From Malaciobacter molluscorum LMG 25693 (GTDB taxonomy: Bacteria; Campylobacterota; Campylobacteria; Campylobacterales; Arcobacteraceae), in the NCBI RefSeq assembly GCF_003544935.1, contig NZ_CP032098.1, positions 2,604,001 to 2,668,000 of the forward strand: DNA of 64,000 nt. The letters are read 5' to 3'. Under the pieces are notes generated by a model. It was not told the DNA's origin. It did not search any database and was given only the letters and a program-made list of their open reading frames with translations. Positions 11,137 through 23,382 of the stretch are shown piece after piece. The position numbers and the translations under genes were made by a program. Within the stretch, counting starts at the first letter, position 1; each line of letters begins with the position of its first letter.

Positions 11137-13074
11137 CTATTTTAATGCATCATGTATTTCTAATCTTAAATTTCTTATTACTTGTTTTATCGCACTAATC
11201 ATTTTAGGATCAGTGATATTCCCTTGTAAAAGTTTAGCTAAATTTTTCTCTCTTTCTTTAAAAAACTTTGCAACAGAACGACTCTTTTTTGTATAGTTAT
11301 ACATTAATACTCCGGAAGCAATTAATATTATTACTAATTTTGTATGCCCAAAAATTGCTGCATAATTTAATACAGAAAAACCAGCATAATCAACTGCATT
11401 AATATCAGCCCCAGCTGCTATTAATAATCTTGCAATTTTGTAATTACCTTTCCATTGTGTATGATGTAAAGCATTTCTTCCTTGATTATCTTTTATATTT
11501 AAATTTGCTTTTTTTGATAAAAGTTTTTCTACTACTTCTATATCATCTGCAATTACTGCTTTATGATATACAGTTCGTCCCTCTTTATCTGTAACATTAA
11601 CATCAATTCTAAATTTTAACAAATATACTAATCTTTCTAGAAATTGTTCTTTATCCCTTATTTTTTTAGCTTTTAATCCATTATCTACAAGTACAGTTAA
11701 TGGAGTATTACCCTCTTCATCTACAATATTTGGATCAGCTCCTGCATTAAAAAGAAGTTTTACTAAATCTAAGTTATTATAAATAATAATATCAAAAATA
11801 ACTGTTCTTCCATTTGAACGAGGTCTATTTATTTTTGGTCTAAAATTTATCATTCTTTTAAGTAATACAAAATAATCTTGTTCATCATCAATATTTAAAT
11901 ATCTTCTAGAACTAGCTCTTTTATAATTTCCTTGAACTAAAATTATTTCACATAATTCATCAATAATAGTTTTCTCTTGAATATCTCTATGATCAATATC
12001 TGCACCTTTTATCACCAAATATTCAATCATAGAGATATTCTTAATTCCACCAAATATTGCTTCAAATAAAACTGTACGTCCCTCTTTATCTTCAGCATTA
12101 ATATCTGCACCTGAATCTAAAAGAAAGTTAATAGTGTCATAGTTTTCTCGTTCAACCTCTTTATATAAAACAGTTTTACCACTATTATCAACTCTATTTA
12201 CTGCAAGTCCATGCTCTATTAAAATAGTAGTTAATTTTAGGTAATCTCTTGTTTCATTGACAAGTTTATATCTTCCTTCAGCATCTTGTTTTGGATCTTT
12301 TAAAATAGAAAGAATTTTTAATATTTCATCTAAAACAGTTTCATTATTAATATTTTTTATATTTAATTTAATACCTTTTTCCAATAGAAGCTCAATTATT
12401 TCGATATTTGAAGCACCCATGACTACAGCATTAAATAAAACATTTTCCCTATTATCATCTGTAATATGAATATCTATGCCATTCATAACTAAAAATTTTG
12501 CAACCTCAGGGGATTCTTTTAAGACTGCATTAAAAAGTACCGTTTGTCCATTTTCATCTACAATATTCGGATTTTCAATATTATTTAAAACTTCTCTTAT
12601 AATTTTTAGATTTCCACCCTCAACAGCATCAAATAAAACAGTTCTTCCATAATTATCAACAATATTTAAATCTGGTTTATGTGCCATTAAAATATCAAAA
12701 ACCCGGTGATTTTCTTCTAAAGCTACATCTTGTAAAAGAGTCCGTCCTGAAGAGTTTACATAATTTAAAGAAGCTCCATTATCAATCAAAAATCTAATCA
12801 TAACCCCATCACCTCGTTCAACTGCTTCACTTAAAACAGTTTTACCGAAATTATCCTCATGATTTACATCTATTCCATTTTTAATTAGAATTCGAATAGC
12901 TTCTATTCTTTTTTTCTTTACTAAAGGAAAAAGTAAAGTTTGACCCTTATCATTTAGTTTATGAATATTTGCGCCATTATCAATTAATTTTTGAACTTTT
13001 TCTATATTTATATAATTTTTAAGTAATTCTTTTTGAAAACTTTCTGTAACATTTTGTTTAAATAAGTTCAACAT
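11137..13074 (-). CDS. Ankyrin-repeat protein
   Basis: A 645-aa protein built almost wholly of ankyrin repeats of about 33 residues. Around fifteen copies can be followed by the recurring GADIN and G-R/Q-T-V/L-L/F signatures (GQTLLFPLV, GKTVLSEAV, GRTVLFDAV, GRNALHHTQ). Two longer inter-repeat insertions occur near residues 265-300 and 380-420. The last about 50 residues are helical and basic. There is no signal peptide or clear membrane anchor, so it is probably cytoplasmic. Ankyrin repeats mediate protein binding and the partner is unknown. It sits between a helicase gene and glmU in a run of housekeeping genes, not near toxin or secretion genes, so I infer a resident scaffold rather than an effector. 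Confidence 0.85.
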   Translation of the reverse strand: MLNLFKQNVTESFQKELLKNYINIEKVQKLIDNGANIHKLNDKGQTLLFPLVKKKRIEAIRILIKNGIDVNHEDNFGKTVLSEAVERGDGVMIRFLIDNGASLNYVNSSGRTLLQDVALEENHRVFDILMAHKPDLNIVDNYGRTVLFDAVEGGNLKIIREVLNNIENPNIVDENGQTVLFNAVLKESPEVAKFLVMNGIDIHITDDNRENVLFNAVVMGASNIEIIELLLEKGIKLNIKNINNETVLDEILKILSILKDPKQDAEGRYKLVNETRDYLKLTTILIEHGLAVNRVDNSGKTVLYKEVERENYDTINFLLDSGADINAEDKEGRTVLFEAIFGGIKNISMIEYLVIKGADIDHRDIQEKTIIDELCEIILVQGNYKRASSRRYLNIDDEQDYFVLLKRMINFRPKINRPRSNGRTVIFDIIIYNNLDLVKLLFNAGADPNIVDEEGNTPLTVLVDNGLKAKKIRDKEQFLERLVYLLKFRIDVNVTDKEGRTVYHKAVIADDIEVVEKLLSKKANLNIKDNQGRNALHHTQWKGNYKIARLLIAAGADINAVDYAGFSVLNYAAIFGHTKLVIILIASGVLMYNYTKKSRSVAKFFKEREKNLAKLLQGNITDPKMISAIKQVIRNLRLEIHDALK

Positions 13075-13135: not shown

Positions 13136-14668
13136 TTAAAATCTTTTTCTATATTTTTTATATTTTTTTATTTCAGAATTTTTATTATTATTTCTTCTGT
13201 CATCAATTAAATTTGACTTTAAAGATTTCTCTATAAAATTATTAAAACTTGCTCTTGTAATACTTGCTTTTATATTATCTGGAAATAGTTCTGGCAACTT
13301 ATATGAGAGCCAAAGGTACAAAGATATTTTTTTTACTTCATCTTCAACAAGTAGTAAATCTCGGTATGTCAAAGCTTTTTTAGGTAAAGTGATTGATGGC
13401 TTATATCGTACAACTCTATTTTTTATTATTGCAGCAATATAAGAGTCATATGCTTGTAAAATTATCGTTGATTTTATTGTAATTGGAGCTTGAGAAAGCA
13501 TATATTTTTCTTCCATTTTTAAATTATTTTTTTTATCTAAAATTTTTGCTGCCTCTATCATAGAACCAATATTTGAAGCAATAAATGGTCCATCAAAATA
13601 CATATTTTCATTAAAGAATTTAAGAACTTTTTCAAGTGAATTTGTCTTAATATGAGAGCTTAAACCTTCTAGCTGTGGTGCACTTATTTTAACTTTAAAT
13701 GGTGCTTTTATTGTTCTAATTGGTTTATCATACTCTTTTTGTAAATGTTTTAATGTATCTTTTGAAGTTGCACCTAAAAATCCCTCTTCATGAAAACCAT
13801 ATCTTCCCGCTCTTCCTGCAATTTGCACTATTTCATTTATATTTATAGTTCTTTTTGAAACTCCATCAAATTTTCTATGAGTTGTGAATAATATAGTTTT
13901 TATTGGTAAATTTAATCCCATAGCAATTGCATCAGTTGCAATTAAAATATCACTTTGTCCTTCTCTAAATCTTCTTGCTTCATCTCTTCTTACTTCTGGT
14001 GATAAGTTACCATAAATAACTGATACTTTATGATATTTTTGCAGCTTTTGTTTTAATCTTAATACATCTGTTCTACTAAATGCTATTAAAGCTGTATGAG
14101 GCTTTAACTCTTTTAAGGATGTATATTTTTCCATAAGATGAAGTCTGTTTTTTCTTTGAAATTTTATAACTTCTAACTCTTCACCTAAATATTTTGCAAT
14201 CTTTTTTACTGCATCTAGTGCATTAACTGATCCTGTCATAATAATTTGTTTTGCAGGACAACCTATAATTGCATTAACCCAAGCCCATCCTCTTTCATCA
14301 TCATCAAGCATTTGAATTTCATCAATTATTGCAACATCAACATCTAAATCATAATCAATCATTTCTATTGTTGAGCATACATGTGCAGCATCTTCATCAA
14401 AAATTTGTTCTTCACCTGTAATTAGTGTTGCATTTAAATTTGAAGCTTTTAGATCTTCATAACCTTCAAGAGCCAATAATCTTAATGGAGCCAAATATAA
14501 TCCACTATTTGCTTTTTTTAATTGCGTCATCGCACTATGTGTTTTACCAGAATTTGTAGGACCAACAAAAAATTTAAGTTTTCTATTTAAACTTCTTGCT
14601 AATGAAAATTGTGATTTTAAATCACAATTTAATAGGTTTTGTAATTGTTTTTGCCAAGTATCTTTCAT
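13136..14668 (-). CDS. Suv3-like superfamily 2 helicase
   Basis: Predicted ATP-dependent RNA (or DNA) helicase of 510 aa. The core carries motif I KFFVGPTNSGKTHSA (about 33-47), motif Ib SGLYLAPLRLLALE, the DEIQ motif II (AIIDEIQMLDDDERG), motif III TGS, motif V DILIATDAIAMGLNLP, and motif VI QIAGRAGRYG. GPTNSGKT, DEIQM and QIAGRAGR together are typical of the Suv3/degradosome helicase branch. The C-terminus ends in a lysine- and arginine-rich tail (KKYKKYRKRF) that could bind nucleic acid. It is divergent from trmA, with 55 bases between the two starts holding both promoters, and may head the long minus-strand run. Its partner nuclease, if any, is not in the window. Confidence 0.85.
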   Translation of the reverse strand: MKDTWQKQLQNLLNCDLKSQFSLARSLNRKLKFFVGPTNSGKTHSAMTQLKKANSGLYLAPLRLLALEGYEDLKASNLNATLITGEEQIFDEDAAHVCSTIEMIDYDLDVDVAIIDEIQMLDDDERGWAWVNAIIGCPAKQIIMTGSVNALDAVKKIAKYLGEELEVIKFQRKNRLHLMEKYTSLKELKPHTALIAFSRTDVLRLKQKLQKYHKVSVIYGNLSPEVRRDEARRFREGQSDILIATDAIAMGLNLPIKTILFTTHRKFDGVSKRTININEIVQIAGRAGRYGFHEEGFLGATSKDTLKHLQKEYDKPIRTIKAPFKVKISAPQLEGLSSHIKTNSLEKVLKFFNENMYFDGPFIASNIGSMIEAAKILDKKNNLKMEEKYMLSQAPITIKSTIILQAYDSYIAAIIKNRVVRYKPSITLPKKALTYRDLLLVEDEVKKISLYLWLSYKLPELFPDNIKASITRASFNNFIEKSLKSNLIDDRRNNNKNSEIKKYKKYRKRF

Positions 14669-14723: not shown

Positions 14724-15845
14724 ATGGATTGTACATATTTTGGTAAATGTGGTAGTTGTACTTTATTTGAGAAATCATATGAGGAACAACTTTTATTTAA
14801 ACTAAATAGAGAAAAACAAAGATTTAGTGATTTAACAAATTTAGAATTTGATGTAATAAAAAGTGAAGAAAAAAACTTTAGAAATAGAGCTGAATTTAGG
14901 ATGTGGAAAAGTTTTGATGAAAATAATAATCCAACTATCTCTTATGCAATGAATGATTTTGATAAAAATGCATTGATAATTGATGAATGCCAAATAGTTA
15001 GTAATCATATTAAAGAAATTATGCCAAAGCTTTTAGATGAAATTCAAAATAGTAATGTACTAAAAACTAAACTTTTCGCATGTGAATTTTTAAACTCAAC
15101 AAAAAAAGATATATTAGTTACTTTAATCTATCATAGAAAGCTAGAAGATAATTGGATAAAAGAAGCAAAAGAACTTGAAGCAAAATTAAATATTAAAATT
15201 ATTGGAAGAAGTAAAAAACAAAAAATTGTTTTAAGTGAAGATTTTATAAAAGAAGAACTAAGTATAGATAAATCAGCTTTTTATTTTGAATATAAAGAAG
15301 GAGGATTTACTCAACCAAATACAAATGTAAACATAAAAATGATTGAGTGGGTTTTATCAAATATTGAAACTTCAAAAACTGATTTATGTGAATTATACTG
15401 TGGTGGAGGTAACTTTACAATTCCTTTATCAAAAAAATTCAATAAAGTTTTAGCAACAGAAATATCAAAAACATCAATTAAATCTGCATTAAAAAACTGT
15501 GAATTAAATTCAATTACTAATATTAATTTTATAAGAATGAGTAGTGAAGAGTTTGTTGAAGCATTAAATGAAAAAAGAGAATTTAGAAGACTTAAAGATG
15601 TTGATTTAAAATCTTATAATTTTTCAACTGTTTTTGTAGATCCTCCAAGAGCAGGTATTGATGAAACAACAACAAATCTTATAAAAAGCTTTAATAAAAT
15701 TATTTATATTTCATGTAATCCTGAGACTTTACATAGAGACTTAAAAGAGCTTACAAAAACACATAAAATAGTAAAATTTGCAATTTTTGATCAATTTTCT
15801 TATACTAAACATATAGAAAGTGGTGTAATCTTAAACAAAATTTAA
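14724..15845 (+). CDS. trmA: tRNA (uracil-5-)-methyltransferase
   Basis: SAM-dependent methylation of U54 in the T-loop of tRNA. At 373 aa it has an N-terminal cysteine set (CTYFGKCGSC), the SAM-binding block LCELYCGGGNFTIPL, VFVDPPRAGIDE, and the catalytic cysteine block YISCNPETLHRDL near the C-terminus. The C-terminal HIESGVIL fits TrmA, so I prefer TrmA to RlmD-type rRNA methylases of the same fold. AAGGT precedes the ATG. It is divergent from the helicase gene. Confidence 0.92.
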   Translation: MDCTYFGKCGSCTLFEKSYEEQLLFKLNREKQRFSDLTNLEFDVIKSEEKNFRNRAEFRMWKSFDENNNPTISYAMNDFDKNALIIDECQIVSNHIKEIMPKLLDEIQNSNVLKTKLFACEFLNSTKKDILVTLIYHRKLEDNWIKEAKELEAKLNIKIIGRSKKQKIVLSEDFIKEELSIDKSAFYFEYKEGGFTQPNTNVNIKMIEWVLSNIETSKTDLCELYCGGGNFTIPLSKKFNKVLATEISKTSIKSALKNCELNSITNINFIRMSSEEFVEALNEKREFRRLKDVDLKSYNFSTVFVDPPRAGIDETTTNLIKSFNKIIYISCNPETLHRDLKELTKTHKIVKFAIFDQFSYTKHIESGVILNKI

Positions 15846-15851
15846 TTTTAC

Positions 15852-15868
15852 CTTAGATAAAATCTAAG
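15852..15868. repeat. Short perfect inverted repeat after trmA
   Basis: CTTAGAT and ATCTAAG are separated by AAA. It lies 6 bases after the trmA stop and has no T run, so it is a weak terminator at best. Its right arm overlaps the TAAGAAT element proposed as part of the flagellin 1 promoter, so an operator role is also possible. Confidence 0.35.
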
Positions 15869-15885
15869 AATAATGAGAGTATTGA
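15865..15885 (+). promoter_or_regulatory. Flagellar promoter-like element upstream of flagellin 1
   Basis: TAAGAAT, 8 bases, then TATTGA. This is the most divergent of five elements with identical 8-base spacing found upstream of flagellin and maf transcription units. The -10-like box lies only 13 bases from the start codon, so the untranslated leader would be very short. Confidence 0.4.
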
Positions 15886-15898
15886 TAAAAGGGTAAAT

Positions 15899-16756
15899 AT
15901 GAGAATTAATACAAATACTGCTTCACTTATGGCACAAGAAGCAAATACTAATACAAATAAAAAGCTTACAACTTCTTTAGAGAAGCTAAGTACAGGTCTT
16001 AGAATTAATAAAGCAAGTGATGATGCATCAGGTTTAGCAATTGCTGATAAACTTAGAACTCAAGCAAGTTCTATTGGTCAGTCAATTTCAAATGGTAACT
16101 CTGCTGTTTCTTTAACACAAATTGCTGATAAGGCTATGGCTGAGCAATCTAATATTTTGAATACTATTAAAACGAAACTTATTCAAGCAGCAACTGATAC
16201 TAGTTCTGATGAAGGTAGAGAAGCCATTGGGAAAGATATTAATAAATTACTTGACCAATTAAATAATATTGCTAAACAAACTAATTATAATGGTACAACA
16301 TTGTTACAAGGTGCAACATCTGGTTCTGCAGCAGTTCAATTAACATTCCAAATGGGTGAAACAAGTAGTGATACTATTCAAACAGGTGCAGGAGTAAGAG
16401 CAAATGTTAGTGGATTAAGTCTTGAAGGTTTAAAATCAGCTGCAAATTCTGGAACGGTATCTTCATTTTCTGCTGCAAAAGCTAGAAGTTTTATGAAAAC
16501 AGTTGATAGTGCGTTAAATACATTAAATAGTTGGAGAGCAGACTTTGGTTCTACTCAAAATCAGTTAGAGTCAGCTATTAGAAATCAAATGACTCAGCAA
16601 ACTAATATTAAAGCTGCTGAATCTGTGATTAGAGATGTTGATTATGCACAAGAAAGTGCTAATTTTAATAAACAGAATATTATTTCACAAGCTGGTACAT
16701 TTGCAATGAGCCAAGCAAATAATGTGCAACAAAATATATTGAGATTATTACAATAA
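15899..16756 (+). CDS. Flagellin 1
   Basis: Structural subunit of the flagellar filament, exported by the flagellar type III apparatus. At 285 aa it is a short flagellin: conserved N-terminal D0/D1 helices (MRINTNTASLMAQEA, LEKLSTGLRINKASDDASGLAIAD), a small variable centre (about 138-200), and the C-terminal D1/D0 helices ending NILRLLQ. AGGG lies 8 bases before the ATG. It is the only one of the five tandem flagellins without the 108-nt structured leader, and its C-terminus (ISQAGTFAMSQANNVQQNILRLLQ region) is distinct. A strong terminator follows, so it is its own transcription unit. The Ser/Thr-rich centre is the likely O-glycosylation target of the downstream Maf and pse genes. Confidence 0.97.
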   Translation: MRINTNTASLMAQEANTNTNKKLTTSLEKLSTGLRINKASDDASGLAIADKLRTQASSIGQSISNGNSAVSLTQIADKAMAEQSNILNTIKTKLIQAATDTSSDEGREAIGKDINKLLDQLNNIAKQTNYNGTTLLQGATSGSAAVQLTFQMGETSSDTIQTGAGVRANVSGLSLEGLKSAANSGTVSSFSAAKARSFMKTVDSALNTLNSWRADFGSTQNQLESAIRNQMTQQTNIKAAESVIRDVDYAQESANFNKQNIISQAGTFAMSQANNVQQNILRLLQ

Positions 16757-16797
16757 TCAGATTTATTTTTATTTTACTCTTAAAAACCCTTAAAATG

Positions 16798-16825
16798 AGC
16801 CTGAACGTGAGTTTGGGCTTTTTTT
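16798..16825 (+). terminator. Intrinsic terminator of flagellin 1
   Basis: A 9-bp stem (AGCCTGAAC / GTTTGGGCT, two G-T wobbles) with loop GTGA is followed immediately by a T7 run. It is the clearest intrinsic terminator of the region. Confidence 0.85.
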
Positions 16826-16852
16826 ATATTTTATTTAACTTTAAGCTAATAT

Positions 16853-16873
16853 TAAGAATTGGTGTGTCATAAT
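16853..16873 (+). promoter_or_regulatory. Flagellar promoter-like element upstream of the small ORF and flagellin 2
   Basis: TAAGAAT, 8 bases (TGGTGTGT), then CATAAT. About 26 bases around it are identical but for one base to the element upstream of flagellin 3. The -10-like box is 30 bases before the small ORF start. Confidence 0.6.
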
Positions 16874-16903
16874 TCTTTTGTATATTACGAAAGGAGACTT
16901 AAA

Positions 16904-17098
16904 ATGACAAGACATATTTCTATAACGGATAACATTTTAAAAATCCAAAAAAAGTTATGTACTTTTGAGAAAGGTTCTAGAAATTATATTAAATATAGCA
17001 AAATTCTAGAAAAACATATTAAAAAAAATAATATGAAAAGAAGAGTTAATAGCAATATAAAAACAATAGAAGCTATTCAGAAAATTAGTAAAAATTAA
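16904..17098 (+). CDS. Small basic protein of unknown function within the flagellin array
   Basis: I do not recognise this family. The 64-aa protein starts MTRHISITDN and is rich in lysine and arginine (about 17 of 64, against 4 acidic residues). It has one cysteine, no signal peptide and no membrane helix, and is probably mostly helical. The start is firm: AAAGGAG lies 7 bases before this ATG, a stronger Shine-Dalgarno than most genes here, and the flagellar promoter-like element lies just upstream. The gene ends 14 bases before the structured leader of flagellin 2, so the two genes are probably co-transcribed. The charge suggests binding to RNA, DNA or an acidic protein (inference). A role in flagellin expression is suggested only by position. 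Confidence 0.7.
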   Translation: MTRHISITDNILKIQKKLCTFEKGSRNYIKYSKILEKHIKKNNMKRRVNSNIKTIEAIQKISKN

Positions 17099-17112
17099 AA
17101 TTAATAAATTTG

Positions 17113-17220
17113 TAGGTATCGATGGATTCCGAAGAGTTAATGACTCTATGCTTGGTAACACAAGAATGTTTTAGGCTCCCGTATCATGGGTAAATCTTTT
17201 AATCATAAAAAGGATTTATT
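17113..17220 (+). ncRNA. Structured flagellin leader, copy A
   Basis: A 108-nt element directly before the flagellin 2 ATG. Predicted hairpins, in leader numbering: 21-35 (AGAGUU/GACUCU), 39-52 (CUUGG/C, bulged A, CAAG), 66-78 (CCCGU/AUGGG), and a 10-bp stem 79-88/97-106 that contains the whole Shine-Dalgarno AAGGA. Here the element is intercistronic, 14 bases after the small ORF. I recognise no known riboswitch class in it. Confidence 0.7.
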
Positions 17221-18078
17221 ATGAGAATTAATACAAATACTGCTTCGCTTATGGCACAAGAAGCTGCAACAAATACAACAAAAAACTTAAATAGCTCATT
17301 AGAGAAGCTAAGTACAGGTCTTAGAATTAATAAAGCAAGTGATGATGCATCAGGTTTAGCAATTGCTGATAAACTTAGAACTCAGGCAAGTTCTATTGGT
17401 CAGTCAATTTCAAATGGTAACTCTGCTGTTTCTTTAACACAAATTGCTGATAAGGCTATGGCTGAGCAATCTAATATTTTGAATACTATTAAAACGAAAT
17501 TAGTTCAAGCAGCAACTGATACTACTTCTGATGAAGGTAGAAAATCTATTGGGAAAGATATTAATAAATTACTTGACCAATTAAATAATATTGCTAAACA
17601 AACTAATTATAATGGTACAACATTGTTACAAGGTGCAACATCTGGTTCTGCAGCAGCGCAATTAACATTCCAAATGGGTGAAACAAGTAGTGATACTATT
17701 CAAACAGGTGCAGGAGTAAGAGCAAATGTTAGTGGATTAAGTCTTGCAGGTTTAAAATCAGCTGCAAAATCTGGAACAGCATCTTCATTTTCTGCTGCAA
17801 AAGCTAGAGGTTTTATGGCAACAGTTGATAGTGCGATTAACACATTAAATGCTTGGAGAGCAGACTTTGGTTCTACTCAAAATCAGTTAGAGTCAGCTAT
17901 TAGAAATCAAATGACTCAGCAAACTAATATTAAAGCTGCTGAATCTGTGATTAGAGATGTTGATTATGCACAAGAAAGTGCTAATTTTAACAAACAAAAT
18001 ATTATTGCTCAAGCTGGTACTTATGCTTTAAGTCAAGCAAATGCAATTCAACAAAATGTAACTAGATTATTACAATAA
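17221..18078 (+). CDS. Flagellin 2
   Basis: Filament subunit of 285 aa, with the D0/D1 core almost identical to its four paralogues and a short variable centre. The N-terminus (EAATNTTKNLNSSLEKLSTG) and C-terminus (AQAGTYALSQANAIQQNVTRLLQ region) match flagellin 3 but not 4 or 5. The start follows an AAGGA predicted to be paired within the leader hairpin, so translation should depend on opening it. A terminator hairpin follows. It is probably co-transcribed with the small basic ORF upstream. Confidence 0.97.
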   Translation: MRINTNTASLMAQEAATNTTKNLNSSLEKLSTGLRINKASDDASGLAIADKLRTQASSIGQSISNGNSAVSLTQIADKAMAEQSNILNTIKTKLVQAATDTTSDEGRKSIGKDINKLLDQLNNIAKQTNYNGTTLLQGATSGSAAAQLTFQMGETSSDTIQTGAGVRANVSGLSLAGLKSAAKSGTASSFSAAKARGFMATVDSAINTLNAWRADFGSTQNQLESAIRNQMTQQTNIKAAESVIRDVDYAQESANFNKQNIIAQAGTYALSQANAIQQNVTRLLQ

Positions 18079-18093
18079 ATTTAATAATATATT

Positions 18094-18128
18094 AAAGAAG
18101 AGATGAAAATGTTATCTCTTCTTTTTTT
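18094..18128 (+). terminator. Intrinsic terminator of flagellin 2
   Basis: An 11-bp perfect stem (AAAGAAGAGAT / ATCTCTTCTTT) around a 9-nt loop, running into a T7 tract. Confidence 0.8.
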
Positions 18129-18155
18129 ACAAATAAGATTATTTTAAACTAATAT

Positions 18156-18176
18156 TAAGAATTGGTGTAAAATAAT
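18156..18176 (+). promoter_or_regulatory. Flagellar promoter-like element upstream of flagellin 3
   Basis: TAAGAAT, 8 bases (TGGTGTAA), then AATAAT. The structured leader begins 10 bases downstream, so it is close to the expected transcript 5' end. Perfect 11-base arms (18136-18146 and 18168-18178) form an inverted repeat around the element and could be an operator. Confidence 0.6.
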
Positions 18177-18185
18177 CTCAATATA

Positions 18186-18293
18186 TAGGTATCGATGGAT
18201 TCCGAAGAGTTAATGACTCTATGCTTGGTAACACAAGAATGTTTTAGGCTCCCGTATCATGGGTAAATCTTTTAATCATAAAAAGGATTTATT
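18186..18293 (+). ncRNA. Structured flagellin leader, copy B
   Basis: Identical to copy A over all 108 nt. It follows the promoter-like element by about 10 bases, so here it is a true 5' untranslated region. It has the same four hairpins, with the Shine-Dalgarno in the last stem (18264-18291). Confidence 0.75.
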
Positions 18294-19148
18294 ATGAGAA
18301 TTAATACAAATACTGCTTCGCTTATGGCACAAGAAGCTGCAACAAATACAACAAAAAACTTAAATAGCTCATTAGAGAAGCTAAGTACAGGTCTTAGAAT
18401 TAATAAAGCAAGTGATGATGCATCAGGTTTAGCAATTGCTGATAAACTTAGAACTCAGGCAAGTTCTATTGGTCAGTCAATTTCAAATGGTAACTCTGCT
18501 GTTTCTTTAACACAAATTGCTGATAAGGCTATGGCTGAGCAATCTAATATTTTGAATACTATTAAAACGAAATTAGTTCAAGCAGCAACTGATACTACTT
18601 CTGATGAAGGTAGAGATGCGATTGGGAAAGATATTAATAAATTACTTGACCAATTAAATAATATTGCTAAACAAACTAATTATAATGGTACAACATTGTT
18701 ACAAGGTGCAACATCTGCTTCTGCAGCTGCGCAATTAACATTCCAAATGGGTGAAACAAGTAGTGATACTATTAAAACAGGTTCTGGTGTAAGAGCAAAT
18801 GTTAGTGGATTAAGTCTTGCAGGTTTAAAATCAGCTGCAAAATCTGGAAGTACTGCATTCTCTGCTGCTGCAGCTAGAGGTTTTATGGCAACAGTTGATA
18901 GTGCGATTAACACATTAAATGCTTGGAGAGCAGACTTTGGTTCTACTCAAAATCAGTTAGAGTCAGCAGTAAGAAATCAAATGACTCAGCAAACTAATAT
19001 TAAAGCTGCTGAATCTGTGATTAGAGATGTTGATTATGCACAAGAAAGTGCTAATTTTAACAAACAAAATATTATTGCTCAAGCTGGTACTTATGCTTTA
19101 AGTCAAGCAAATGCAATTCAACAAAATGTAACTAGATTATTACAATAA
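18294..19148 (+). CDS. Flagellin 3
   Basis: Filament subunit of 284 aa. The N- and C-terminal helices match flagellin 2, while the centre (ATSASAAAQLTF, SGSTAFSAAAARGFMATVD) matches flagellin 5. The structured leader sits directly upstream. No convincing terminator or promoter-like element lies in the 70 bases before the next leader, so flagellin 4 is probably read from the same transcript. Confidence 0.97.
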   Translation: MRINTNTASLMAQEAATNTTKNLNSSLEKLSTGLRINKASDDASGLAIADKLRTQASSIGQSISNGNSAVSLTQIADKAMAEQSNILNTIKTKLVQAATDTTSDEGRDAIGKDINKLLDQLNNIAKQTNYNGTTLLQGATSASAAAQLTFQMGETSSDTIKTGSGVRANVSGLSLAGLKSAAKSGSTAFSAAAARGFMATVDSAINTLNAWRADFGSTQNQLESAVRNQMTQQTNIKAAESVIRDVDYAQESANFNKQNIIAQAGTYALSQANAIQQNVTRLLQ

Positions 19149-19218
19149 ATTTGAATAATATATTAAAATAGTATTTTTTTGTAAAAGTATTTAAAAGGGA
19201 AAATAAAACGCTATTTTG

Positions 19219-19326
19219 TAGGGGTCAATGGATTCCGAAGAGTTAAAAACTCTATGCTTGATAATACAAGAATGTTTTAGGCTCCCGTATCATGGGTAAA
19301 TCTTTTAATCATAAAAAGGATTTATT
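19219..19326 (+). ncRNA. Structured flagellin leader, copy C (divergent copy)
   Basis: The same 108-nt length, with seven differences from copies A and B. Three lie in the first nine bases and are shared with copy D. Four lie in hairpins 1 and 2. In hairpin 1 one change is in the loop and one turns U26-G30 into U26-A30. In hairpin 2, G43-C47 becomes A43-U47, a coupled change that keeps the pair. This is the main comparative evidence that the element folds as RNA. It is intercistronic between flagellins 3 and 4. Confidence 0.75.
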
Positions 19327-20178
19327 ATGAGAATTAATACAAATGCTGCTTCATTGATCGCTCAAGAAGCTGCAACAAACACATCTAAAAATGTAAGTAA
19401 TTCTTTAGAGAAGCTAAGTACAGGTCTTAGAATTAATAAAGCAAGTGATGATGCATCAGGTTTAGCAATTGCTGATAAACTTAGAACTCAGGCAAGTTCT
19501 ATTGGTCAGTCAGTTTCAAATGGTAACTCTGCTGTTTCTTTAACACAAATTGCTGATAAGGCTATGGCTGAGCAATCTAATATTTTGAATACTATTAAAA
19601 CGAAATTAGTTCAAGCAGCAACTGATACTACTTCTGATGAAGGTAGAGATGCGATTGGGAAAGATATTAATAAATTACTTGACCAATTAAATAATATTGC
19701 TAAACAAACTAATTATAATGGTACAACATTGTTACAAGCAAGTGCAGCAGGAAATGGTTCAGCTACATCATTAACATTCCAAATGGGTGAAACAAGTAGT
19801 GATACGATTACAACAACTGCAGGTGTAAGAGCAAATGTTCAAGGATTAGGTCTTAGCGCATTAAAAGTATCTGCAGCTGCTGGATTTAGTGCTGCAAGTA
19901 CTGCAAGAAGTTTTATGAAAACAGTTGATAGTGCAATTAACACACTAAATGGTTGGAGAGCAGACTTTGGTTCTACTCAAAACCAATTAGAATCAGCTAT
20001 TAGAAATCAAATGACTCAGCAAACTAATATTAAAGCTGCTGAATCTGTGATTAGAGATGTTGATTATGCACAAGAAAGTGCTAATTTTAACAAACAGAAT
20101 ATTATTTCACAAGCTGGTACTTATGCTATGAGTCAAGCTAACTCTATTCAACAAAATGTTCTTAGACTTCTTCAATAG
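19327..20178 (+). CDS. Flagellin 4
   Basis: Filament subunit of 283 aa with the most divergent centre of the set (ASAAGNGSATSLTF, VQGLGLSALKVSAAAGFSAAST). The N-terminus (NAASLIAQEAATNTSKNVSNS) and C-terminus (QANSIQQNVLRLLQ) are shared with flagellin 5. It has a structured leader but no TAAGAAT-N8 promoter-like element, so its expression probably depends on read-through from flagellin 3. A hairpin terminator follows, duplicated after flagellin 5. Confidence 0.97.
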   Translation: MRINTNAASLIAQEAATNTSKNVSNSLEKLSTGLRINKASDDASGLAIADKLRTQASSIGQSVSNGNSAVSLTQIADKAMAEQSNILNTIKTKLVQAATDTTSDEGRDAIGKDINKLLDQLNNIAKQTNYNGTTLLQASAAGNGSATSLTFQMGETSSDTITTTAGVRANVQGLGLSALKVSAAAGFSAASTARSFMKTVDSAINTLNGWRADFGSTQNQLESAIRNQMTQQTNIKAAESVIRDVDYAQESANFNKQNIISQAGTYAMSQANSIQQNVLRLLQ

Positions 20179-20211
20179 TAGTCTTTGAATACTTTTTGAA
20201 TTTTTTGAATT

Positions 20212-20246
20212 TTTAAAGGGCTAGAATTACTCTAGTTCCCTTTAAA
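20212..20246 (+). terminator. Hairpin terminator after flagellin 4
   Basis: Stem TTTAAAGGG / CCCTTTAAA, extended inside by CTAGA / TCTAG with a TT bulge. T-rich sequence lies upstream and the stem ends in T and A residues rather than a clean T tract. The identical sequence follows flagellin 5, so the duplication that made the pair included the 3' flank. Confidence 0.6.
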
Positions 20247-20285
20247 ACATCCATTCTTAATAGTTATAGTATTAAGAATGGATGT
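20247..20285. repeat. 16-bp perfect inverted repeat spanning the flagellin 5 promoter-like element
   Basis: Arms ACATCCATTCTTAATA (20247-20262) and TATTAAGAATGGATGT (20270-20285) are separated by 7 bases. The right arm contains the TAAGAAT element, so the left arm presents the same element in reverse. It could be a second terminator for flagellin 4, an operator, or a divergent promoter pair. Confidence 0.7.
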
Positions 20286-20293
20286 GTTATATA
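20273..20293 (+). promoter_or_regulatory. Flagellar promoter-like element upstream of flagellin 5
   Basis: TAAGAAT, 8 bases (GGATGTGT), then TATATA. The leader begins 26 bases downstream. Confidence 0.55.
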
Positions 20294-20318
20294 GATGTGA
20301 GGGAATTTAAATACATTG

Positions 20319-20426
20319 TAGGGGTCAATGGATTCCGAAGAGTTAATGACTCTATGCTTGGTAACACAAGAATGTTTTAGGCTCCCGTATCATGGGTAAA
20401 TCTTTTAATCATAAAAAGGATTTATT
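20319..20426 (+). ncRNA. Structured flagellin leader, copy D
   Basis: 108 nt. The first nine bases match copy C and the rest matches copies A and B, so it is itself a mosaic. All four hairpins are conserved, with the Shine-Dalgarno inside stem 4 (20397-20424). Confidence 0.75.
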
Positions 20427-21281
20427 ATGAGAATTAATACAAATGCTGCTTCATTGATCGCTCAAGAAGCTGCAACAAACACATCTAAAAATGTAAGTAA
20501 TTCTTTAGAGAAGCTAAGTACAGGTCTTAGAATTAATAAAGCAAGTGATGATGCATCAGGTTTAGCAATTGCTGATAAACTTAGAACTCAGGCAAGTTCT
20601 ATTGGTCAGTCAATTTCAAATGGTAACTCTGCTGTTTCTTTAACACAAATTGCTGATAAGGCTATGGCTGAGCAATCTAATATTTTGAATACTATTAAAA
20701 CGAAATTAGTTCAAGCAGCAACTGATACTACTTCTGATGAAGGTAGAGATGCGATTGGGAAAGATATTAATAAATTACTTGACCAATTAAATAATATTGC
20801 TAAACAAACTAATTATAATGGTACAACATTGTTACAAGGTGCAACATCTGCTTCTGCAGCTGCGCAATTAACATTCCAAATGGGTGAAACAAATGCTGAT
20901 ACTATTACAACAACTGCAGGTGTAAGAGCAAATGTTAGTGGATTAAGTCTTGCAGGTTTAAAATCAGCTGCAAAATCTGGAAGTACTGCATTCTCTGCTG
21001 CTGCAGCTAGAGGTTTTATGGCAACAGTTGATACTGCGATTAACACATTAAATGCTTGGAGAGCAGACTTTGGTTCTACTCAAAATCAGTTAGAATCAGC
21101 AGTAAGAAATCAAATGACTCAGCAAACTAATATTAAAGCTGCTGAATCTGTAATTAGAGATGTTGATTATGCACAAGAAAGTGCTAATTTTAACAAACAG
21201 AATATTATTTCACAAGCTGGTACTTATGCTATGAGTCAAGCTAACTCTATTCAACAAAATGTTCTTAGACTTCTTCAATAG
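20427..21281 (+). CDS. Flagellin 5
   Basis: Filament subunit of 284 aa that reads as a recombinant. The N-terminal about 30 residues and last about 25 residues match flagellin 4. The central ATSASAAAQL and SGSTAFSAAAARGFMATVD blocks match flagellin 3. A short patch between them (TITTTAGVRANV) again matches flagellin 4. It has its own promoter-like element, structured leader and terminator. The Maf glycosyltransferase gene follows. Confidence 0.97.
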   Translation: MRINTNAASLIAQEAATNTSKNVSNSLEKLSTGLRINKASDDASGLAIADKLRTQASSIGQSISNGNSAVSLTQIADKAMAEQSNILNTIKTKLVQAATDTTSDEGRDAIGKDINKLLDQLNNIAKQTNYNGTTLLQGATSASAAAQLTFQMGETNADTITTTAGVRANVSGLSLAGLKSAAKSGSTAFSAAAARGFMATVDTAINTLNAWRADFGSTQNQLESAVRNQMTQQTNIKAAESVIRDVDYAQESANFNKQNIISQAGTYAMSQANSIQQNVLRLLQ

Positions 21282-21314
21282 TAGTCTTTGAATACTTTTT
21301 GAATTTTTTGAATT

Positions 21315-21349
21315 TTTAAAGGGCTAGAATTACTCTAGTTCCCTTTAAA
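21315..21349 (+). terminator. Hairpin terminator after flagellin 5
   Basis: A copy of the flagellin 4 terminator, with the same stem TTTAAAGGG / CCCTTTAAA and the inner CTAGA / TCTAG pairing. It separates flagellin 5 from maf. Confidence 0.6.
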
Positions 21350-21359
21350 AATAAAAGCC

Positions 21360-21380
21360 TAAGAATCTTTAATGTAAAAT
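21360..21380 (+). promoter_or_regulatory. Flagellar promoter-like element upstream of maf
   Basis: TAAGAAT, 8 bases (CTTTAATG), then TAAAAT, 25 bases before the maf start. It suggests that maf is expressed together with the flagellins. Confidence 0.55.
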
Positions 21381-21405
21381 AAAATATCTAAAGATAAGGT
21401 GTTAC

Positions 21406-23382
21406 ATGCAAGAACTTGAAGAATTAACTCAACTACTTTTTAAACTATATAAAAAGAATTTAGAATTTTTAAAAAATAATCATCCTAAAGTATATAAAAA
21501 GGTTCAAGACCTATCAAATGAATTAGATAATAAAAAAAGAAAAGAAAGATACACTCTAGAATATATAGAAAAAGGTGGATACTTTGATGTATTAGACCAT
21601 AATACAGATAAGTATATATATGATTTCAACAGTTATAAAGAAGCAGACAAAAGAGCTGAAATAACTGATTTTACAAGAGATAGCTCTTTAAATTTATTAA
21701 GAATTGATACAATCACTAATAAATTAGCACTAATGGGGTCACTTGGAGTTGTAACAACATTAGTAAATTATATTAATCACAAAGTTGATTTTTCAAATAT
21801 AACTTTTTCTAAAATATTTAAATTTATATTTATTGGTGTTGGATCAGGAGTACATCTAAATGAAGTATATAAAAAAATTGATTCAATGAATACTTTAATT
21901 ATTGAACCGGACATAGAATTATTTAGAATATCTTTATTTACAGCTGATTATACACTTTTTGAAGAAGGAAATAAAAAACTATTTTTATCAGTTGGTGAAA
22001 ATGAAATAGAAAGAGAAGAAACTCTTGCAGATTTCAGCTATTATCATAACTATATGAATTATAATATAAAACATCATCTATTTTGGATAGAATATAAATA
22101 TATATTAGACCAAATAATTGATTTTTTTGGTAATAATAGTGCTACATCATTTCCATTTGATGCAGTTTTAAATGTACTTGAAAGAACAACAAAATTTATG
22201 AGAAACAAAGAACTTTTTTTAAAAAACTCTCTTGTTCAGAAAAATGCACCTTTAAAAAATAAAAAAGTCTTAATTATTAGTGCTGGACCATCATTAGATA
22301 AAAATATAGATTGGATTAAACAAAACCAAGATAAATTTGTAATAATATGTGTTGATGTAATATTAAGAAAATTAGAGAAAAATAATATTATACCAGATAT
22401 TGTAGTATCGATTGACCCTTCTTATCTTTGTGGGGAATATTTAACAACAGAAAATAAAGATTTTTTAAAAAATAGTGCAATTATTTTTCTTTCTCAACAA
22501 GAAGAGAGTGTTTTAGAAAAAGTTAAACATCTAAATTACTACTTTTCTCAAGTTTTTCCATTATCAAAGGAATTAGGATATTCTTTTTCTCTTCCAAATG
22601 TTGGAACATTTTCATTTGCAATTGCAATATTTTTAAAAGCAAATGAAATTTACTTAGTAGGAAATGATGCCGCATTTAACCAAGAAACAGGTAGCAGATA
22701 TGCTTCTGATAGTTCACATAAAATTAAAGATTTTTCTCATGATGAAAAATATGAAAAAGATGATACCTTAATATCATCATATGATATTATTGAAGTAAAA
22801 GGTAACTTTAAAGATAAAATAAAATCAAATAGAATTTTATTAACATTTAAAAAGGATTATGAATCATACTTATTTTCATTAGATGAAAAAGTAAAAAAAT
22901 CACTTAAAGCTTATAATCTTTCTGATGGTGCATATATGGAAGGATTGATTCCTCTTAAAAAAGAAAACATTGATTTATCAAAATTTACAAAAAAAGAGTT
23001 TAATGTAAATAATGTTTTACAAAGTATTTCTTGTGAAGTTAAAGATTTAGACTTTAAAGATGATGCAAAAATATTAACAAAAATGATTACAAGAGTAAAT
23101 AAATTCAAAAAAATAAAAGTAAATTCAAGAGATGATCTTTTAGCTAAAAAATTAGATATTATGATTTGGATTCTTGAACAAAAGAAGACAATGAGTAGCG
23201 AAATTTTTGGGAATGTTTTCCTAAAATTTATCGAACTTATTGATATTTATGTTAATTTTTTCCTAAATTTAAGACAAAATGCTCTTTATGATAAAAAAAA
23301 CTTAATGGAAATTAAATCATACTGGTGTGATTCTACGATTTATGTATTAAAATACCTAAAACATATAATAAATCAAGAGTAA
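21406..23382 (+). CDS. maf: Maf-type motility accessory factor (flagellin nonulosonic acid transferase)
   Basis: A 658-aa member of the Maf/DUF115 family (6-hydroxymethylpterin-pyrophosphokinase-like). These proteins transfer pseudaminic or legionaminic acid from the CMP-sugar to Ser/Thr of flagellin in the cytoplasm before export. The central domain (about 285-440) begins KNKKVLIISAGPSLDKNIDWI and includes VICVDVILRKLEKNNIIPDIVVSIDP and a later EIYLVGNDAAFN. The flanking regions are helical and family-specific. It lies between the flagellins and the pse cluster, with a flagellar promoter-like element upstream, so donor synthesis, transfer and acceptor genes are contiguous. The stop codon lies inside a bidirectional terminator hairpin. 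Confidence 0.9.
   Translation: MQELEELTQLLFKLYKKNLEFLKNNHPKVYKKVQDLSNELDNKKRKERYTLEYIEKGGYFDVLDHNTDKYIYDFNSYKEADKRAEITDFTRDSSLNLLRIDTITNKLALMGSLGVVTTLVNYINHKVDFSNITFSKIFKFIFIGVGSGVHLNEVYKKIDSMNTLIIEPDIELFRISLFTADYTLFEEGNKKLFLSVGENEIEREETLADFSYYHNYMNYNIKHHLFWIEYKYILDQIIDFFGNNSATSFPFDAVLNVLERTTKFMRNKELFLKNSLVQKNAPLKNKKVLIISAGPSLDKNIDWIKQNQDKFVIICVDVILRKLEKNNIIPDIVVSIDPSYLCGEYLTTENKDFLKNSAIIFLSQQEESVLEKVKHLNYYFSQVFPLSKELGYSFSLPNVGTFSFAIAIFLKANEIYLVGNDAAFNQETGSRYASDSSHKIKDFSHDEKYEKDDTLISSYDIIEVKGNFKDKIKSNRILLTFKKDYESYLFSLDEKVKKSLKAYNLSDGAYMEGLIPLKKENIDLSKFTKKEFNVNNVLQSISCEVKDLDFKDDAKILTKMITRVNKFKKIKVNSRDDLLAKKLDIMIWILEQKKTMSSEIFGNVFLKFIELIDIYVNFFLNLRQNALYDKKNLMEIKSYWCDSTIYVLKYLKHIINQE

Follow-up and report, generated by a model that had tools for sequence, protein, structure and literature searches.

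The flagellin array of Malaciobacter molluscorum LMG 25693 raises the question of what is done by a non-coding sequence of 108 nucleotides (nt) that is repeated in front of most of its genes. The array lies in a stretch of 64,000 nt (contig NZ_CP032098.1, positions 2,604,001 to 2,668,000), here called the window, whose own numbering is used below. Taking into account its relatives in the family Arcobacteraceae, we consider that this leader is probably a cis-acting control RNA which represses translation and is dedicated to flagellin, its core being the docking site of a trans factor. A conserved core, covariation on the sense strand, the position before flagellins and a predicted closure of the Shine-Dalgarno sequence or of the AUG were established computationally.

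All four leaders adjoin the ATGAGAATTAAT of a flagellin gene, and sequence similarity among the copies drops directly 5' of the leader edge (Table 1). A preliminary description of the locus, made from the sequence alone, had placed four 108-nt elements at these same positions, each ending at a flagellin ATG, before four of five flagellin genes, and this was confirmed; the flagellin at 15899 is the one lacking a leader. With one copy as BLAST query, no copies beyond these four were found in the whole 2.80 Mb genome. The adjoining coding DNA is also repeated, the four copies being part of a duplicated array; their near-identity is therefore expected from recent duplication, and since they say little on selection, relatives were examined. 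The evidence for selection is that of the family and not that of the four copies. Folding energies of single copies were only modestly better than those of shuffled sequences (z between -1.84 and -2.65 in the 111-nt versions; with 37 extra coding bases, -0.90 for copy A and -2.34 for copy C).

A BLAST search of the 104 family genomes gave matches in 64 of them at an expectation value (E) of 0.01 or less, many being short and covering the Shine-Dalgarno end only. The upstream regions of flagellins were extracted and 53 leaders were aligned, from 51 of which we built a covariance model of the 68-nt core. Two leaders misaligned in helix P1 or P2 (L009:400-523 and L030:1499-1625) were left out of the model, were recovered by it, and were included in the later covariation sets. 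The Shine-Dalgarno sequence and the coding part were kept out, so that flagellins could not be found through their own start. At E ≤ 0.05 the model matched in 79 of the 104 genomes, four of which (G053, G097, G098, and G101) had only weak matches; strong matches were present in 75 genomes belonging to 15 of 20 genera, as tallied by hand. The genome scan used stricter Infernal filters, which lose weak matches. There were 116 strong matches (at least 39.9 bits) in the fetched stretches, and a flagellin start of the form M[RIV]INTN was located 37-109 nt after the core in 113 of them, so that leader use corresponds to one functional gene group, the flagellins, as would be expected of a leader under protein control. 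Regarding the three exceptions, the protein downstream of L028 starts with MRIMTN and has a flagellin-like sequence (a variant flagellin start), the contig of L048 ends after ATGAGAAT, and in L114:113-195 a long palindrome, which may reflect an insertion or rearrangement, lies behind the core, with no flagellin. Flagellin itself (PF00669, E ≤ 1e-20) was detected in 91 of the 104 genomes; these include every one of the 75 leader genomes, and the leader appears in none of the other 13.

The weaker matches behaved differently from the 113. None of the 16 weaker family matches (32.5 bits or less) stands before a flagellin. When 398 genomes of the order, family included, were searched, ten weak matches at E ≤ 0.01 (E 6.5e-5 or worse) were obtained in ten genomes outside the family; seven of them fall within open reading stretches, no flagellin follows any of them in the 120 nt read, and the best one (G434) and that of G349, a genome of the same genus, correspond to a single coding sequence. 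Both sets of weak matches, from the family and from elsewhere in the order, were judged to be chance rather than true leaders, as none is before a flagellin. With the order as search scope, the leader is known only from Arcobacteraceae.

The core is formed by three helices, P1 of 6 base pairs (bp), P2 of 4 bp (longer in some leaders), and P3 of 4 bp. In the fold of the 53 aligned rows, 11 of the 15 predicted pairs showed changes on both sides. When 49 distinct rows were aligned without regard to structure, pairing was kept in 99.4% of the cells and 10 of 14 pairs had changed on both sides; the covariation score was 0.298, against 0.143 when shuffled and at most 0.074 when the partner was slid, which also lowered pairing to 51.9% or less. 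Mutual information was calculated on 102 distinct model-fitted rows, and the top nine among the well-paired column pairs (those with more than 88% pairing and three or more both-side changes) were all helix pairs. The eight best column pairs were again all helix pairs under a tree-based null on 101 rows, in which substitutions were redealt on a FastTree tree, a procedure that imitates R-scape and is not R-scape itself. Under this null, five of the 14 helix pairs and no other pair reached E ≤ 0.05; among the remaining nine, three had E 0.10-0.17, two had 1.9 and 8.8, and the other four are invariant. All-pairs scans gave no extra helix or pseudoknot within the core. The 1425 helix cells comprised 1305 Watson-Crick pairs, 99 G-U, 2 A-C, and 19 others, and 13 of these 19 were U-U at P1 pair 9-20, the single mismatch that P1 also holds in window copies A and B. 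The ratio of 99 G-U to 2 A-C argues for a sense-strand RNA and against palindromes in DNA. Several unpaired letters were invariant or nearly so, namely, the UA that precedes P1, one A in the P1 loop, another just 5' of P2, the AUG that links P2 to P3, and AA and GU behind P3, which suggests specific recognition.

These results modify the fold that had first been given for the window. It consisted of four hairpins, of which the first two correspond to P2 and P3, and it overlooked the covarying helix P1, in which leader positions 3-8 pair with 13-18; the hairpins at 66-78 and 79-106 are not general, since they are part of a lineage-specific 3' end, of which there are two or three, namely type I, present in 39 of 113 leaders. 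The replacement of G43-C47 by A43-U47 had been taken as compensatory; pairing at this place is possible in only 25 of the 59 family members whose P3 loop has 6 nt, GUAAAA being the commonest P3 loop in the family. The changes at 29/30, one of which had been read as pair-keeping in hairpin 1, fall in the variable P2 loop. Considering that it relied on near-identical duplicates, with one pair mis-assigned and one helix missed, the argument for selection drawn from pair-keeping substitutions in the four copies was weak.

Behind the core, a sequence rule separated the leaders into type I (the window's), type II (65), and type III (9). Tails were aligned for 24 of 27 distinct type I and 52 of 58 distinct type II leaders, and accessibility was calculated in 101 of the 113, with duplicates and cut loci dropped. 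In type I, UAAAUCUUUU pairs with AAAAGGAUUUA and is predicted to bury the Shine-Dalgarno sequence, whose probability of being unpaired was 0.06 (n=30) against 0.39 with a shuffled upstream sequence, and lower in 29 of the 30. In type II, UCAUAA pairs with UUAUGA, which is predicted to bury the start codon and to leave the Shine-Dalgarno sequence in a loop; here the AUG had a probability of 0.06 (n=62) against 0.43 when shuffled, and lower in 59 of the 62. The four window copies gave 0.01 at the Shine-Dalgarno sequence and 0.33-0.38 at the AUG; the corresponding values were 0.56 and 0.58 in the leaderless window flagellin and averaged 0.43 and 0.48 in 28 other window genes. The P4 helix of type II covaries, with one pair changed on both sides in 21 of the 52 tails. 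The covariance model, the Arcobacteraceae search, and the covariation statistics that the preliminary description had proposed as a check were carried out, and its suggestion of a structured cis-regulatory RNA of flagellin synthesis is supported by the family distribution, by the 113 of 116 strong matches before a flagellin start, by P1-P3 covariation, and by the predicted burying, in most leaders, of the Shine-Dalgarno sequence or start codon. Transcription attenuation was discarded, as the 5-bp terminator-like stem of the four window copies is the P4 hairpin of type I; a counterpart was not seen in the type II alignment, which was inspected by eye only.

In the mechanism that we propose, the three-hairpin core with its invariant unpaired letters would constitute the recognition domain, and the lineage-specific 3' platform would close translation initiation by default in most leaders, at the Shine-Dalgarno sequence in type I and at the start codon in type II. 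A trans factor recognizing the core might open the closed state or stabilize it, and flagellin output would thereby be coupled to need. We infer the regulation of translation by closure in the cell, the existence of the trans factor, and the direction of its effect. The presence of the leader before flagellins in most flagellated genomes of the family, with covarying helices to mutate and re-pair, makes the proposal concrete and testable, and two start-site closures on one core would clearly exemplify the exchange of platforms on a conserved RNA domain.

There are several points that weigh against a translation-repressing leader. A strong match is absent from 16 of the 91 flagellin-bearing genomes and some flagellins of leader-bearing genomes have no leader, so the leader is not essential for flagellin synthesis. 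The regions upstream of seven flagellin starts (L142-L146) from five of these 16 genomes were read, and a no-filter search of these loci gave nothing above 9.9 bits; some leaderless genomes may be assembly gaps, and the contig of G059 ends soon after the flagellin. As to closure, the Shine-Dalgarno sequence of type II is more open than in the controls (0.87 against 0.46 when shuffled), type III (9 of 113) has no clear closure, with 0.57 at the Shine-Dalgarno sequence and 0.39 at the AUG, and the openness from -20 to +15 is about that of shuffled controls (0.46 versus 0.47, 0.45 versus 0.48, and 0.54 versus 0.49), the difference being confined to the Shine-Dalgarno sequence or the AUG. The pairings of the start codon and Shine-Dalgarno sequence barely vary and have no covariation support, the sole exception being an isolated pair beside the type II start-codon helix with four both-side changes. 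A supported open state was not found, by eye, beyond the pair scans of the core. Within the core, 13 of 102 rows have U-U instead of a pair at P1 9-20, and the mutual-information, tree-null, and cell-count scans use the model-fitted alignment, which leans towards the helices.

Among the explanations that could replace this one, the position before flagellins calls to mind the flaA gene of C. jejuni, whose 45-nt 5' leader has two ANGGA stem-loops bound by CsrA and is controlled by CsrA and FliW, according to PMC4894983. Such control, with FliW as the antagonist, would fit the GGA that type II exposes in a hairpin loop and the presence of FliW in 66 of the 104 family genomes; the window's genome has two FliW genes (G000:C1:2459315-2459632 and 1667144-1667452) and no recognisable CsrA. 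However, CsrA (PF02599) was found in none of the 104 family genomes, with E. coli, B. subtilis, and T. maritima positive as controls. In a sample of 60 genomes of the order it was present in 41, all outside the family (41 of 55, against 0 of 5 inside), and it is therefore also missing from 14 of the 55 extra-family genomes. Moreover, the GGA of P1 varies (e.g., GGAAUUAAUUAAUUCC), that of the Shine-Dalgarno sequence is placed in a loop by type II alone, and a conserved GGA in at least two hairpin loops was not found. FliW does not track the leader either, being present in 55 of 75 leader genomes (and so without a match in 20) and in 9 of 16 leaderless flagellin-bearing ones (Fisher p 0.23; the co-occurrence genome sets were compiled by hand). 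With no CsrA in the family and no association with FliW, control of this kind was largely refuted and we regard it as very improbable. A function at the DNA level, as operator or promoter region, or an origin as a by-product of the recent duplication would agree with the duplicated array of the window, and it is refuted as the sole explanation by the G-U asymmetry, by covariation over 101 distinct core sequences, and by the spread over 15 of 20 genera; its probability is negligible.

A conserved core with variable platforms is the usual layout of a riboswitch, and the leader has the conserved, covarying recognition domain expected of one, with invariant unpaired letters and platforms predicted to hide the Shine-Dalgarno sequence or AUG. 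A core that binds a small molecule, for instance, a motility-tied second messenger, is thus a real, if minority, possibility; against it, only flagellins are found downstream, while a metabolite sensor usually reaches several gene kinds, and no Rfam riboswitch matched. Hairpins near the 5' end can also protect abundant mRNAs, and thermometers bury the Shine-Dalgarno sequence in A-U-rich hairpins, as occurs in type I. Neither a passive stabilizer of the mRNA nor a temperature sensor requires invariant unpaired core letters or flagellin-only use, and two different closures would be unneeded in a stabilizer, so that we take this reading, in place of a dedicated regulator, to be unlikely.

The trans factor of the proposed mechanism could be the 64-amino-acid basic helical protein encoded at 16904-17098, an assignment that we regard as improbable as it stands. 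The protein was matched in 81 of the 104 family genomes, and it was present in 72 of 75 leader genomes against 7 of 16 leaderless flagellin-bearing ones (Fisher p 2.5e-6, with no correction for kinship, and shared ancestry alone can yield such co-occurrence); the three leader genomes without it have a completeness of 74-87%. Its gene immediately precedes a leader in the window, an arrangement found in three genera, g1, g10, and g18; in other places gene and leader are on different contigs or, among the pairs that were compared, separated by about 1.5 to 55 kb. G066 and G098, in which no flagellin was matched, encode the protein as well. It shares with leader B the kind of promoter-like element, a pattern that, with up to three mismatches allowed, matches in this genome only at 16848 and 18151. 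A similar promoter-like sequence was observed before the leaders of other genera and also before the leaderless flagellins of G102. The predicted structure has two helices (mean predicted local distance difference test score 90.9), and no family or fold match pointing to RNA binding was obtained: the fold search gave no meaningful match (best E 0.46), and profile searches against PDB sequences and Pfam gave weak matches only, none reaching a Pfam cut-off. A pattern-based scan of 84,980 species genomes detected 41 loci with the protein, with titles of Arcobacter and related genera, Campylobacterales, Campylobacteraceae, Epsilonproteobacteria bacteria, one Sulfurospirillum metagenome-assembled genome, and one unplaced bacterium; the Sulfurospirillum, unplaced-bacterium, and Epsilonproteobacteria records appear to correspond to family genomes already in the set. 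The link between protein and leader is a lead only.

It is worth considering the regulatory setting of the leader, as the two usual switches for flagellin control were not found, CsrA in the 104 family genomes and FliA in the 19 tested. Above its curated cut-off, FliA was detected in 0 of these 19 against 9 of 12 genomes from other families; in each of the 19 the FliA profile matches a frame some 610-650 codons long, presumably that of the main sigma factor, and G085 has three more matches, short and weak. RpoN was present in 8 of the 19, the window's genome included, a mixed occurrence that differs from its absence in A. butzleri as reported in PMC2147049. It may be speculated, as a rather doubtful extension, that leader and 64-amino-acid protein form a flagellin checkpoint private to Arcobacteraceae that replaces the missing FliA and CsrA circuits, in which the protein would read the P1-P3 core and set flagellin translation via two independently evolved start-site closures.

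As a kind, a structured leader that controls flagellin translation has precedents in C. jejuni (PMC4894983) and Caulobacter (PMC3930126). The Arcobacteraceae leader is like that of C. jejuni flaA in its place before flagellin, in having the ribosome-binding site in a stem-loop, and in the compensatory changes among relatives; it differs in its length of about 100-180 nt, in its three-hairpin core, and in a family where CsrA was not found (flaA features from PMC4894983). In Caulobacter, FlbT acts on the 5' untranslated region of flagellin and flagellar biogenesis proceeds without FliA; if a partner exists, the resemblance would be that of a dedicated protein on flagellin mRNA leaders with FliA not involved (PMC3930126). 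Unlike FlbT, the 64-amino-acid protein reached no Pfam cut-off. FlbT is also longer than the 64-amino-acid protein. With riboswitches and ribosomal-protein autoregulatory leaders the element shares a conserved recognition domain and variable platforms, here predicted to hide the Shine-Dalgarno sequence or start codon, and it differs from them in lacking an Rfam match. The search with 4227 Rfam families of the window region 15500-21500 and 16 homologous loci gave nothing at the gathering cut-off, and the only listed matches touching the leader were to AilA_thermometer, on the opposite strand, with E 9 (copies A and B). A known Rfam class was therefore rejected, as the preliminary description had anticipated. 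An earlier description of this RNA family was not recognized in the literature searched; the supplements of PMC6429828 were outside the search and a prior sighting there is possible. In that work (Stav 2019), 38 intergenic regions of Arcobacter sp. L were analysed and most novel ones are unnamed, and its main text has no word beginning with "flagell".

Table 1. Leaders, their helices, and associated genes of the flagellin array (window coordinates).
Feature	Position	Strand	Remark
Flagellin leader RNA, copy A (type I)	17113-17220	+	108 nt
Copy A, core P1	17115-17120/17125-17130	+	Helix arms
Copy A, core P2	17133-17136/17144-17147	+	Helix arms
Copy A, core P3	17151-17154/17161-17164	+	Helix arms
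Copy A, P4	17178-17190	+	
Copy A, P5	17191-17218	+	Predicted to bury Shine-Dalgarno AAGGA 17210-17214
Flagellin leader RNA, copy B	18186-18293	+	108 nt, identical to copy A
Flagellin leader RNA, copy C	19219-19326	+	108 nt, most divergent of the four
Flagellin leader RNA, copy D	20319-20426	+	108 nt
Flagellin gene after leader A	17221-18078	+	PF00669, PF00700
Flagellin gene after leader B	18294-19148	+	
Flagellin gene after leader C	19327-20178	+	
Flagellin gene after leader D	20427-21281	+	
Flagellin gene without leader	15899-16756	+	First flagellin of the array, for contrast
Conserved 64-amino-acid basic helical protein, upstream of leader A	16904-17098	+	Candidate partner only
Promoter-like element AATATTAAGAATTGGTGTGTCATAAT, before the 64-amino-acid gene	16848-16873	+	
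Promoter-like element, second copy, before leader B	18151-18176	+	2 mismatches

Some minor observations were made on individual leaders and on the surroundings of the array. In eight leaders from three genera (L084, L052, L046, L085, L031, L032, L044, and L096) CGTCAT replaces the usual GTGTCAT, and the flagellins behind them start with MI or MV; perhaps leader and gene were transferred jointly. The sequence L121:1254-1320, from G098, a genome with no flagellin match, has P1 with one mismatch and CCGAAGA, then unrelated sequence, near a piece of the 64-amino-acid gene, and looks like a leader remnant. In the window, a Maf-type (motility-associated) glycosyltransferase is encoded directly behind the flagellin array (21406-23382), and on the minus strand there are genes for a Suv3-like RNA helicase, near the array (13136-14668), and for a protein consisting largely of ankyrin repeats (11137-13074).

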